From Gelidibacter maritimus (GTDB lineage Bacteria; Bacteroidota; Bacteroidia; Flavobacteriales; Flavobacteriaceae), in NCBI RefSeq assembly GCF_014062315.1, contig NZ_JACGLT010000004.1, positions 124,001-188,000 on the forward strand: a stretch of 64,000 nucleotides of DNA, written 5' to 3'. Below, one piece after another: positions 2,731 through 48,036 of this stretch. Position numbers and translations under genes: made by a program. The notes beneath the pieces were generated by a model. That model was not told where the DNA came from, made no database searches, and saw only the letters and a program-made list of their open reading frames with translations. Each line of letters begins with the position of its first letter. Position 1 is the first letter of the stretch.

Positions 2731-3474
2731 TTAAATAATATTTATAATCCGAACCCCGCATAAAGTCTCCAAACCATACACCTCTTCGGAAATAACCTCA
2801 AAATACCTGACCCCCATTAATACAATCCCGGTATGTACCGACGACCTTATCACGTCAGGAGTCAGCTCAAAAGAAATAGGCTCGGCGTCAAGGTCTATAA
2901 ACCGAGTCGGAGAGACCACTAAAGAGCTTTCGAGACTCTCAAAGTCAAAGTCTAAAATACCAAGTGAAATTCCAAGATGTGTGGCAGATGTTGGAGCTTT
3001 GATACCCGCCAAATTAAAATGTGAAACCTTCAAGGTTTGAGATGGCCAATCAAAGACCGTGGATTTGCAAAGGGCCTCTAAAACCTTATTTTTTGGCGTC
3101 AAATCATACTGCCGCAATATCTGCCGTCCCTTAGCTGTTTGTAAACCTTGATGAACACGGCGCTTGCCACGCTCAGAAACCATATCCAACGTTTTGAGTT
3201 GCAGAAAAAGTTGCATCAGATTAGAATGAAATTTCTTGTCTTGAACCTCATTCATAAAAGGTAGTAGCGCCAACCGAAACGCTTTCTTGACGCTACTACT
3301 GTGCCCAAATTCACTGGCATTCTCACGTACCCGTTGCATACTAGCTTGGGTGCGAATGGCATGGCCATCAAATCCACCGCCTGCTTTTCTGGCATAGCCT
3401 ACGCCCTTGGTGATATAAAAATTTATGCCGCCTATGGTCCCTGTAATTTTAAATATTCCCTTTTGTCGTGCCAT
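2731..3474 (-). CDS. Conserved Bacteroidota hypothetical protein (MARQKG type)
   Basis: A 247-residue protein starting MARQKGIFKITGTIGGINFY, which matches a conserved Flavobacteriia family (from memory, typical members begin MARQKGIIKLEGTIGGITFY). The next segment GGGFDGHAIRTQ, followed by RVRENASEFGHSS, fits the same family. No catalytic motif is visible and its function is unknown. I place the start at 3474 rather than at an in-frame ATG at 3510, because the extra 12 residues (MFILLVFITLGP) are foreign to the family start. The gene sits downstream of the tRNA-Met terminator in the same orientation. Members often occur in variable regions, so it may belong to the accessory segment. Confidence 0.75.
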   Translation of the reverse strand: MARQKGIFKITGTIGGINFYITKGVGYARKAGGGFDGHAIRTQASMQRVRENASEFGHSSSVKKAFRLALLPFMNEVQDKKFHSNLMQLFLQLKTLDMVSERGKRRVHQGLQTAKGRQILRQYDLTPKNKVLEALCKSTVFDWPSQTLKVSHFNLAGIKAPTSATHLGISLGILDFDFESLESSLVVSPTRFIDLDAEPISFELTPDVIRSSVHTGIVLMGVRYFEVISEEVYGLETLCGVRIINII

Positions 3475-3619
3475 AGGTCCTAAAGTAATAAAAACCAGCA
3501 ATATAAACAATAGGTATAGCGTATCTATAGCGTATCAATGCTATGGACAATCCATTCCTCATTGCAGTTATAATTGGGATATTTTAAAGGTAATATGGGT
3601 CGAGTAGGTCTCAATGTAA

Positions 3620-3654
3620 AATAAAAAAGTCAAGACTTTGACATCTTGACTTTT
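3620..3654 (-). terminator. Rho-independent terminator of tRNA-Met
   Basis: An 11-bp perfect stem (3625-3635 with 3644-3654, arm AAAAGTCAAGA) with an 8-nt loop. Read on the minus strand it is followed by a T-rich tract. It lies 14 nt past the tRNA-Met 3' end. Confidence 0.85.
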
Positions 3655-3667
3655 CCATCGTTTACTG

Positions 3668-3741
3668 TAGCGAGATCGGGACTTGAACCCGAGGCCTCCG
3701 GGTTATGAATCCGACGCTCTAACCAGCTGAGCTACCTCGCC
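3668..3741 (-). tRNA. tRNA-Met (CAT), elongator type
   Basis: A complete cloverleaf on the minus strand. The acceptor begins GGCGAGG and pairs with TCTCGCT before discriminator A, with G-T pairs at both ends. The D-arm is GCTC...GAGC, the anticodon loop TTCATAA has CAT at 34-36, and the T-arm is TCGGG-TTCAAGT-CCCGA. CCA is not encoded. It lacks the three G-C pairs of initiator tRNAs, so it is most likely elongator Met. A CAT-anticodon tRNA could also be the Ile2 substrate of TilS, which is encoded at 53.4 kb. The promoter lies about 370 bp upstream (4110-4140), with two broken tRNA halves in between. Confidence 0.92.
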
Positions 3742-3787
3742 ATTAATTTTACTCATCGAAGATCATCAGACTTTGAATCCGACGCTC

Positions 3788-3820
3788 CCCGCCCGAACGT
3801 ACCTTTTCGGAACGGGCGGG
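3788..3820. repeat. GC-rich palindromic element (CCCGCCCG family)
   Basis: A 33-nt element with perfect 8-bp ends CCCGCCCG / CGGGCGGG and an inner AACGTACC...GGAA segment. It is inserted in the D-loop/D-stem junction of tRNA half copy 1, with no target duplication or loss. Related copies lie at 3917, 10613 and 47885. Confidence 0.88.
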
Positions 3821-3832
3821 TAACCAGCTGAG

Positions 3833-3860
3833 CCTGTCCGAATGAATTCGTTCAGGCGGA
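3833..3860. repeat. Imperfect palindromic element (CCTGTCCG / CAGGCGGA type)
   Basis: A 28-nt imperfect hairpin centred on GAATTC and inserted between G10 and C11 of tRNA half copy 1. Its start (minus strand TCCGCCTGAACG) resembles the CCCGCCCGAACG start of the longer element, so both probably belong to one family. An identical copy lies at 3961-3988. Confidence 0.82.
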
Positions 3861-3916
3861 CTACCTCGCCATTAATTTTACTCATCGAAGAGCATCAGAC
3901 TTTGAATCCGACGCTC

Positions 3917-3948
3917 CCCGCCCGAACGTGCCGTTCAGTACGGGCAGG
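3917..3948. repeat. GC-rich palindromic element (CCCGCCCG family)
   Basis: A 32-nt copy in tRNA half 2, with ends CCCGCCCG / CGGGCAGG (one changed base in the right arm) and inner AACGTGCC. It sits at the same tRNA position (21/22) as the copy at 3788. Confidence 0.87.
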
Positions 3949-3960
3949 TAACCAGCTGAG

Positions 3961-3988
3961 CCTGTCCGAATGAATTCGTTCAGGCGGA
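3961..3988. repeat. Imperfect palindromic element, second copy
   Basis: Identical to the element at 3833-3860 and inserted at the same tRNA position (10/11). An 8-bp inverted repeat with a 3-nt loop (ATTGGATA...TATCCAAT, 4020-4038) lies a little further upstream in the leader. Confidence 0.82.
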
Positions 3989-4109
3989 CTACCTCGCCAT
4001 TAATTATGTTTTTACACGTATTGGATATGCTATCCAATGCCTCCCCTTAAAAGGTGTCCTCAATTTGGGAGCATAGGCCATAAGGCCACGGTGCCATAAT
4101 TTAAGGCTG

Positions 4110-4140
4110 CAAATATAAAAACATTATTAATCTCACCAAA
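4110..4140 (-). promoter_or_regulatory. Bacteroidota promoter for the tRNA-Met transcript
   Basis: On the minus strand: -33 TTTG (4140-4137), a 19-nt spacer, then -7 TATATTTG (4117-4110), an exact match to the TTTG/TAnnTTTG consensus. Transcription would start near 4103. The two broken tRNA halves would then lie in the precursor leader of tRNA-Met. Confidence 0.82.
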
Positions 4141-4236
4141 CAATAAAACCATAAAAATACGATAAAATTAATTTTGTCAATTTGTCTTTAAACTAAACAA
4201 ATAATTATATATTGAGCAGGTTAACAAAATAGACCT

Positions 4237-4629
4237 ATGCAAGAAAAAATAAAATTTGAAATGGAGTTTCCCATTCAGTCATCCCCTCAACTATTATATC
4301 AATATATATCGACACCTTCAGGCTTATCTGAATGGTTTGCAGACAATGTCAACTCCCGTGGCGAGTTTTTTACATTTATTTGGAATGACAGTGAAGAAAA
4401 AGCCAAATTGCTCAGCAAGAAAAGTGGGGAACGGGTAAAATTCAGATGGATGGATGATGAAGATGACGGGGAATCTTATTTCTTTGAAATCAGAATCCAA
4501 GTGGATGAAATCACTAAGGATGTATCCATAATTGTCACTGACTTTACAGAAGAGGACGAGGTTGACGAAGCCAAAATGCTTTGGGAAAATCAAATCTCCG
4601 ATTTAAAACAGGTTTTGGGCTCTGCTTAG
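4237..4629 (+). CDS. START-like domain protein
   Basis: A 130-residue soluble protein of the SRPBCC/START-like fold, the short family common in Bacteroidota. Visible landmarks are the N-terminal strand KFEMEFPIQSSPQLLYQYIS, the helix GLSEWFADNV, alternating strands such as FFTFIWND and YFFEIRIQVD, and the long C-terminal helix MLWENQISDLKQVLG that closes the pocket. It probably binds a hydrophobic ligand or a client protein, but neither is known. The gene stands alone between the divergent tRNA-Met promoter and a terminator at 4659. Family assignment is good; function is not inferable. Confidence 0.85.
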   Translation: MQEKIKFEMEFPIQSSPQLLYQYISTPSGLSEWFADNVNSRGEFFTFIWNDSEEKAKLLSKKSGERVKFRWMDDEDDGESYFFEIRIQVDEITKDVSIIVTDFTEEDEVDEAKMLWENQISDLKQVLGSA

Positions 4630-10464: not shown

Positions 10465-10473
10465 AGTTTAGTG

Positions 10474-10575
10474 GGGTAGTGAGTAGTGGGTAGTGGGTAG
10501 TGGGTAGTGGGTAGTTGGTAGTTGGTAGTGGGTAGTGGGTAGTTGGTAGTGGGTAGTTGGTAGTTGGTAGTGGGT
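10474..10575. repeat. Heptanucleotide tandem repeat (GTAGTGG/GTAGTTG)
   Basis: About 14 consecutive 7-nt units alternate between GTAGTGG and GTAGTTG just after the DUF493 stop. The 7-nt period leaves a long frame open on the other strand that would encode a PTTNYPL-type repeat; this is an artefact of the periodicity. Confidence 0.93.
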
Positions 10576-10612
10576 TTTGAGTTCACTGCTATATTTGATT
10601 AACAATTAACGA

Positions 10613-10644
10613 CCCGCCCGAACGTGCCATCTCGGTACGGGCGG
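10613..10644. repeat. GC-rich palindromic element (CCCGCCCG family)
   Basis: A 32-nt intergenic copy: CCCGCCCG, inner AACGTGCC-ATCT-CGGTA, right arm CGGGCGG. Unlike the others it is not inside a tRNA-like sequence; the flanks are AT-rich intergenic DNA. Confidence 0.85.
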
Positions 10645-47861: not shown

Positions 47862-47924
47862 GGTGGTCGTAGCTTAGTTGGTTACCCGCCCGTACCGAAC
47901 GGCACGTTCGGGCGGGGAGCATCG
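47862..47924 (+). pseudogene. Broken tRNA-His 5' half with palindrome
   Basis: GGTGGTCGTAGCTTAGTTGG then TTA, followed after the 32-nt insertion by GAGCATCG, copies the 5' part of the tRNA-His 30 nt downstream with two substitutions. The insertion lies between positions 21 and 22, exactly as in the tRNA-Met halves. The sequence diverges in the anticodon stem. Confidence 0.88.
47885..47916. repeat. GC-rich palindromic element (CCCGCCCG family)
   Basis: A 32-nt copy in the opposite orientation to those at 3.8 kb: CCCGCCCGTACC-GAACG-GCACG-TTCGGGCGGG, with perfect 8-bp outer arms. It is inserted in the D-arm of the tRNA-His half without target duplication. Confidence 0.88.
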
Positions 47925-47953
47925 TTAAGATGTTCCTATAAAAAGTGCAATAC

Positions 47954-48028
47954 GGTGGTTGTAGCTCAGTTGGTTAGAGCATCGGTTTGTGGTACCGAGG
48001 GTCGCCGGTTCGAGCCCGGTCTTCCACC
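47954..48028 (+). tRNA. tRNA-His (GTG)
   Basis: G-1 at 47954, acceptor GTGGTTG, D-arm GCTC...GAGC, anticodon loop TTTGTGG with GTG, T-arm GCCGG-TTCGAGC-CCGGT and discriminator C73. G-1 opposite C73 is the identity mark of tRNA-His. The acceptor pairs with CTTCCAC, leaving two adjacent T-T mismatches (positions 5 and 6), which is unusual. Confidence 0.9.
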
Positions 48029-48036
48029 CAAAATTT

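Follow-up and report, generated by a model that had tools for sequence, protein, structure and literature searches.

The systems closest to the locus described here are the phage enzyme SegB and the mobile ORFs (mORFs) of fungal mitochondria. SegB is a free-standing GIY-YIG homing endonuclease of T-even phages that is encoded beside tRNA genes and cuts inside them, and the breaks lead to tandem amplification via homologous recombination; its reported motif is RAWTSGAAC (PMC13096335). According to the retrieved portions of that report, co-localisation favoured no isotype, and these portions describe no palindrome-bearing partial tRNA copy (PMC13096335). The mORFs of Allomyces atp6 and of Glomus atp6, atp9, cox2 and nad3 combine an intron-less endonuclease ORF within a gene with a duplicated gene end; as far as the retrieved text goes, they concern protein genes and C-terminal ends, and are mostly of the LAGLIDADG type, with GIY-YIG in Glomus atp9 (PMC3630166). 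Homing in tRNA genes is also represented by group I introns with homing endonucleases in bacterial tRNA genes (PMC3984707), and short hairpin repeats in RNA genes and spacers by the double-hairpin or repetitive hairpin-forming elements of mitochondria, which the retrieved sections tie neither to partial tRNA copies nor to GIY-YIG cassettes (PMC2800124).

The cassettes described below share with SegB a GIY-YIG gene beside tRNAs, putative cuts in tRNA genes and tandem amplification, which makes SegB a precedent, as the mORFs are for an endonuclease ORF joined to a duplicated gene end. In contrast to SegB, they are chromosomal, contain palindrome-bearing partial tRNA copies, and have nuclease lineages that track the tRNA isotype. 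Compared to the mORFs, they involve bacterial tRNA genes, either the 5' or the 3' part of the gene, and palindromes within the displaced part. Whereas group I introns self-splice, the tRNA of a cassette is restored at the DNA level (the intron check was an Rfam scan of positions 3000–4300). Searches of the top-ranked open-access literature turned up no account of GIY-YIG cassettes anchored at the tRNA genes of bacterial chromosomes.

The window, i.e., the whole 64,000-nt stretch of Gelidibacter maritimus DNA that was analyzed, carries two tandem partial copies of tRNA-Met directly upstream of the intact gene, and a similar copy upstream of tRNA-His. We consider it likely, with a probability of roughly 0.7, that these halves and a further one at tRNA-Ile derive from a mobile GIY-YIG homing cassette anchored at tRNA genes, either as remnants lacking the ORF or as non-autonomous copies. 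The Met halves are best interpreted as belonging to a mobile GIY-YIG system, one that is invisible from the Met site alone.

Table 1. Positions of tRNA genes, partial copies and inserts at the Met and His sites of the window.
Feature	Positions	Strand	Basis
Intact tRNA-Met (CAU; CAT in DNA), restored gene	3667..3741	-	ARAGORN; Rfam tRNA, 62.9 bits
Half 2, tail, 32 nt, end ..AAAATTAAT abutting the intact tRNA	3742..3773	-	sequence repeat
Half 2, tRNA raw nt 23-36	3774..3787	-	exact repeat
Half 2, palindrome (insert 2, 33 nt) at 21|22	3788..3820	-	
Half 2, tRNA raw nt 11-22	3821..3832	-	repeat family D4
Half 2, insert 1 (28 nt) at 9|10 or 10|11	3833..3860	-	
Half 2, tRNA nt 1-10 (nt 1 = 3870)	3861..3870	-	
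Half 1, tail, 32 nt	3871..3902	-	
Half 1, tRNA raw nt 23-36	3903..3916	-	repeat family D3
Half 1, palindrome (insert 2, 32 nt) at 21|22	3917..3948	-	
Half 1, tRNA raw nt 11-22	3949..3960	-	repeat family D4
Half 1, insert 1 (28 nt) at 9|10 or 10|11	3961..3988	-	
Half 1, tRNA nt 1-10 (nt 1 = 3998)	3989..3998	-	
Extra leader, ~94 nt, several small palindromes	3999..4092	-	by-eye comparison with G244
Promoter, TTG(4139)-N19-TATATTTG(4117-4110)	4110..4139	-	
tRNA-His 5' half, nt 1-22, two differences to the intact gene	47863..47884	+	
Palindrome at 21|22 of the His half	47885..47916	+	
GAGCATCG and tail of the His half	47917..47954	+	
Intact tRNA-His	47955..48029	+	ARAGORN

Each Met half consists of GGCGAGGTAG, CTCAGCTGGTTA and GAGCGTCGGATTCA, which together reproduce the first 10+12+14 = 36 nt of tRNA-Met with every base exact. 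The first-pass annotation had described an exact copy of about 34 nt, slightly less than found here, and was right that it is the 5' and not the 3' half that is copied. The repeat pairs of the two units are 96% identical at a spacing of 128–129 nt. The two insertions are as precise as had been reported, and no target duplication was seen at either, again as claimed. Insert 2 follows raw nt 22, which we take to be the 21|22 junction of standard tRNA numbering, and insert 1, identical in both halves, had been assigned to 10|11, although a one-base shift permits a placement at A9|G10 equally well. Both had been called palindromic, which is clear for insert 2 with its outer arms CCYGCCCG / CGGGCGGG; insert 1 is only an imperfect palindrome. 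A promoter had been placed at 4110–4140, and the motif listed in Table 1, presumably the Bacteroidota promoter consensus, lies there upstream of both halves. Both copies are thus positioned inside the tRNA leader, as the first-pass annotation had it, and would be transcribed from this promoter.

Comparison with relatives reveals both empty and filled alleles of the Met site, in different species rather than strains. A congener (G244) and a member of another genus (G212) have an intact tRNA-Met alone behind the promoter, and in both TATATTTG is retained ahead of the gene. A second congener (G013), with a one-base variant of TATATTTG, has a filled site with one half carrying both inserts, the second of which is longer and nested; this half begins where the native tRNA begins in G244. 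The extra leader of the window, which is preceded by ..TTAAATTATGGC, is missing from the empty site of G244, and the GGC before it (4093–4095) matches the native tRNA start of G244. This extra leader is probably an older, decayed insertion.

The same genome holds further copies of this type. A genome search with the Met region identified a tRNA-Ile half between the 16S rRNA and tRNA-Ile of the rRNA operon, on two contig ends. Like the His half, it carries a palindrome of the same family at 21|22 and lies directly upstream of the intact gene. Since the arrangement recurs at these two other tRNAs and in other organisms (see below), that at Met is not due to chance, and an assembly error is unlikely as its origin; the copy number at Met is given as assembled. 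A plain 23-nt comparison upstream of the genome's own tRNAs flags Ile and His and misses the Arg and Pro cassettes, and Met scores poorly because insert 1 splits the half. Inspection by eye showed broken copies beside GIY-YIG ORFs at the Pro, fMet, Phe and Arg tRNAs of this genome. At Arg, the most informative of these loci, the leader and tRNA nt 1–36 are duplicated, with palindromes at both 9|10 and 21|22, and the half is directly followed by a frameshifted GIY-YIG ORF, the duplicated leader and the intact tRNA. None of the 11 matches to PF01541 in this genome is located at the Met, His or Ile tRNAs, and thus no cognate enzyme is known for these copies, which contain no ORF and have either lost it or never had one.

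Palindromes of this family are not confined to tRNA halves. The half-palindrome motif has 43 matches in the genome at up to two mismatches, compared to 23 for the reversed pattern, and among the matches listed 13 have at most one mismatch, eight of which lie away from any tRNA half; by eye, no shared target was seen at the non-tRNA sites. One lone palindrome at 10613–10644 of the window, where no tRNA is found, adjoins runs of a GTAGTGG-like repeat (about 10470–10580). On another contig (C45:48000–53500, L087) matches to the palindrome family form a row with one every ~137–144 nt (C45:51169, 51306, 51443, 51587 and 51731).

To describe the distribution of such halves we scanned species genomes with the pattern TGGTTACCNGNCCG..CGGNNGGGGAGC; as this fixes TGGTTA|palindrome|GAGC, the scan cannot gauge how often 21|22 is used. 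It returned 65 matches in 60 stretches, nearly all of them tRNA 5' halves as judged by eye, with at least one false match (L120, a protein gene). The matches come mostly from Bacteroidota (Flavobacteriaceae, Bacteroidales, Cyclobacteriaceae) and many Patescibacteria. A second copy, in some cases itself palindrome-bearing, is in range for 51 of the 65; the script found none in range for the other 14, where several stretches end or are masked. Absence from all relatives, which the first-pass annotation had named as part of its refutation, is not what we found: relatives have similar arrangements at numerous tRNAs, some with palindromes and others without. Both junctions, 9|10 as well as 21|22, were encountered again in two phyla and for several isotypes. 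In 299 genomes of the family, the spaced pattern matched four times, at the window's own locus, in G212 and at two further loci where ARAGORN called no tRNA. The pattern was not matched in viral contigs, nor did tblastn of one cassette protein find a match in phage records; a phage vector for the cassettes was therefore rejected. Five patescibacterial loci (L101, L119, L123, L136 and L154) contain whole tRNA copies with a palindrome in the D arm, some with stems that look decayed by eye.

In 11 of the 65 scan matches, the half is followed at no more than 300 nt by the start of a GIY-YIG ORF of the same orientation. In seven of these (L105, L107, L109, L122, L136, L139 and L152) an intact tRNA follows the ORF; in the other four the stored stretch ends or, at L114, a second broken copy comes before any intact tRNA. 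In L103 and L104 the ORF lies beyond 300 and within 400 nt, and not between half and intact tRNA, and 52 of the 65 matches have no such ORF within 400 nt behind the half, some of their stretches being cut off. We also asked the reverse question, starting from the nucleases. In a sample from the family, drawn from the listed matches with short ORFs, 28 of 92 small GIY-YIG matches lie within 600 nt of a tRNA, where rough arithmetic would predict about two, and all 28 are on the same strand as the tRNA. Tandem arrays of two to three cassettes occur in this sample. A profile (A1) built from 11 tRNA-adjacent ORFs matched in 139 of the 247 Bacteroidota genomes sampled. Among the A1 matches listed, 103 regions were examined, leaving aside some that lay near a contig end or in an array already covered; of the 154 domains in them, 115 have a tRNA no more than 600 nt away, in all 115 cases on the same strand. 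Because the profile came from tRNA-adjacent ORFs, this result describes one subfamily.

The alignment of the 11 ORFs, which stem from kin of the window's genome, has four invariant positions, Y5, Y16, R26 and E62, presumably the conserved tyrosines of the GIY and YIG motifs, the arginine and the glutamate. Three cassette ORFs match PF01541 with E values of 1.5e-13 to 5.2e-16. In a search of NCBIfam with four ORFs, one ORF had a single match, to a model for group I intron endonucleases, that scored far under the cut-off.

Partial copies and palindromes were counted at 132 tRNAs, each having a GIY-YIG domain on its own strand at a distance of up to 700 nt, with all called tRNAs masked and a partial copy defined as at least 12 exact nt. 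A partial copy was detected near 106 of these 132 tRNAs, compared to a mean of 7.6 (maximum 23) when the tRNA was taken from another locus. An insert was present in 83 of the 132 and was palindromic in 40 (control mean 1.1, maximum 4). Among the 114 distinct inserts, 39 contain a perfect stem of at least five pairs, while shuffling gave a mean of 1.6 and a maximum of 6 in 200 rounds. The script found no palindromic insert at the remaining 92 of the 132 tRNAs, indicating that the palindrome is not obligatory. Where palindromic cases lie upstream of the tRNA, nine of 15 are at raw nt 21–22 and two at 9–11, and one of these two, in an Ala cassette (L316), is a 28-nt insert closely similar to the window's insert 1 and at the same site. 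On the downstream side, palindromes either take the place of the anticodon or T arm or interrupt it, and loci of one isotype share the position, e.g., nt 37 of Met (CAT) in four loci and nt 50–51 of Asp in another four. Several of these 3'-type palindromes fall in the T loop region that matches the complement of the SegB motif; by our own comparison, we take that motif to be the complement of the T-loop consensus. Of 25 halves, 14 have the motif TANNTTTG in the 130 nt that precede them, and none of 23 half-to-tRNA spacers contains it, against a background of 8.7% per 130 nt, indicating that the half occupies the native start position; the count missed the Met promoter of the window, where insert 1 shifts the stretch examined.

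Two more specific ideas about the inserts were rejected. A palindrome acting as a site-specific transposon with the target TA|G would fit 9|10 and 21|22 in many tRNAs, but the flanks of the non-tRNA copies differ, and an Arg cassette (L286) has TG|G at 9|10. A general fold-back by a tail hairpin, formed from the 22–36 part and the tail as at Met, His and Ile, was dropped because only 2 of 60 halves stood out above shuffled sequences (the count excluded L120, any tail of less than 40 nt and duplicates with identical first 20 nt).

On a GIY-YIG tree, which omitted five of the 92 ORFs (<60 aa) and added five from Patescibacteria, the tRNA label is clustered, with ten changes compared to a mean of 28.1 after shuffling. 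One clade of 48 rows has a single tRNA neighbor, and five non-tRNA rows are found among tRNA-anchored ones elsewhere. The nuclease lineage also tracks the isotype, with 12 changes for 25 rows and 10 isotypes, while the minimum after shuffling was 14 and none of 1000 shuffles was as low. For this test one ORF per locus was used, L219 and L256 (no partial copy) were left out, and isotypes and sides were assigned by hand. The 5' or 3' arrangement follows the tree less strictly, nine of 1000 shuffles being as low.

These observations can be accommodated in one model. A full cassette of the 5' type comprises the native leader and tRNA nt 1–21, the palindrome, tRNA nt 22 to ~36, a GIY-YIG ORF of ~80 codons and the restored tRNA. 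Compared to the empty site, the added DNA can be regarded as one insertion precisely at 21|22, [palindrome + tRNA 22–36 + ORF + leader + tRNA 1–21]. We infer that the nuclease cuts the empty tRNA gene, in the D arm for the 5' type or in the anticodon or T arm for the 3' type. After a cut at 21|22, the left end could pair with the dead half and the right end with the restored gene of a cassette, and repair through the matching tRNA halves would copy the intervening cassette, resulting in the observed order. The palindrome would stand at the cut point and may protect the dead half against recutting, a role that is the weakest part of the model. At Met and His of the window, part of the tRNA gene is duplicated and the intact gene remains; the tRNA would be kept intact because the element returns the 5' part that it displaces. 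The restored tRNA would still be cuttable, so that cassettes could accumulate in tandem, which fits the tandem units of the window and elsewhere. Tandem duplication without homing could account for part of this anatomy, and homing is the most economical reading.

An unlikely alternative to such a homing cassette is a passive origin, in which tandem duplication of a tRNA gene is followed by decay of the upstream copy, and dispersed REP-like palindromes enter this neutral DNA by drift. That the genome has palindromes of this family at other places, among them the lone one in the window, suits this explanation and counts against the cassette reading. By eye, the palindromes are located in copies that look dead or decayed, and L116, with a single palindrome, resembles a plain tandem duplication that extends to 17 nt before the tRNA. 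However, passive drift predicts neither the recurrence of the 9|10 and 21|22 junctions across phyla and isotypes nor same-strand GIY-YIG ORFs beside the copies whose lineage follows the isotype.

Less likely still is a selected RNA element, in which the half and its hairpin would have a function within the precursor of the tRNA or rRNA, such as a part in its processing or that of a decoy. Four Ile records (from the window's genome, Arenibacter, Gelidibacter algens and Mesonia) are 93–100% identical in half and palindrome and 50–69% in their spacers, except for 90% between the window's genome and Gelidibacter algens. In addition, the leader of tRNA-Met folds better than shuffled sequences (z −5.06), though strong palindromes alone would yield this value. 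A selected function is at odds with the sporadic presence of the spaced pattern, i.e., four matches among 299 family genomes, and with the lack of a Met copy in the congener G244, and the initially suggestive tail hairpin is exceptional in only the two halves mentioned above. tRNA genes often serve as attachment sites, and partial tRNA copies are frequent scars, but it is very improbable that an integrative element with a tyrosine recombinase left the copies seen here, as the copy is a 5' half adjoining the gene, the ORFs in kin are GIY-YIG, and no integrase was recognised by eye among the window ORFs beside the Met site.

The homing cassette can be extended, tentatively and with less than even odds, to a chromosomal class of selfish elements in Bacteroidota and Patescibacteria that use host tRNA halves as their ends, with the palindrome marking the insertion, the restored tRNA forming part of the element, and the ORF-less forms of the window being non-autonomous and moved in trans. 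If so, the 5' end of a tRNA gene may itself have been replaced by a parasite, even repeatedly. Should the homing-cassette reading itself be right, many of the small GIY-YIG ORFs of both phyla would be homing elements specific for tRNAs. Despite being essential and conserved, tRNA genes would be under constant attack by parasites that are forced to rebuild them. The palindromes in dead tRNA copies would then record the cut site of each enzyme lineage, so that specificity would be predictable from sequence. Odd annotations such as broken tRNA-like genes, one 'tRNA-SeC' call and ORFs running into tRNA genes would also find an explanation.

At L105, L122, L244 and other loci, the GIY-YIG ORF runs into the tRNA and stops at a TAG at nt 8–10 or 21–23, so that tRNA DNA encodes the C-terminus of these proteins. 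Such stops inside the tRNA are seen for 23 of 47 upstream GIY-YIG ORFs (the row of L107 is in the wrong frame), and we rejected them as independent evidence for a boundary, since TAG is where the frame through the tRNA ends anyway. The tRNA-SeC (tca) called by ARAGORN at L235 (G011:C19) has a GIY-YIG ORF on either side and resembles a copy of tRNA-Val in which a TCCCGA..TCGGGA palindrome stands in place of the anticodon arm; the call is probably false. At L355 (G174:C34:5300–11500), at least eight GIY-YIG ORFs follow each other in a row with a period of ~365 nt, forming a long cassette array.
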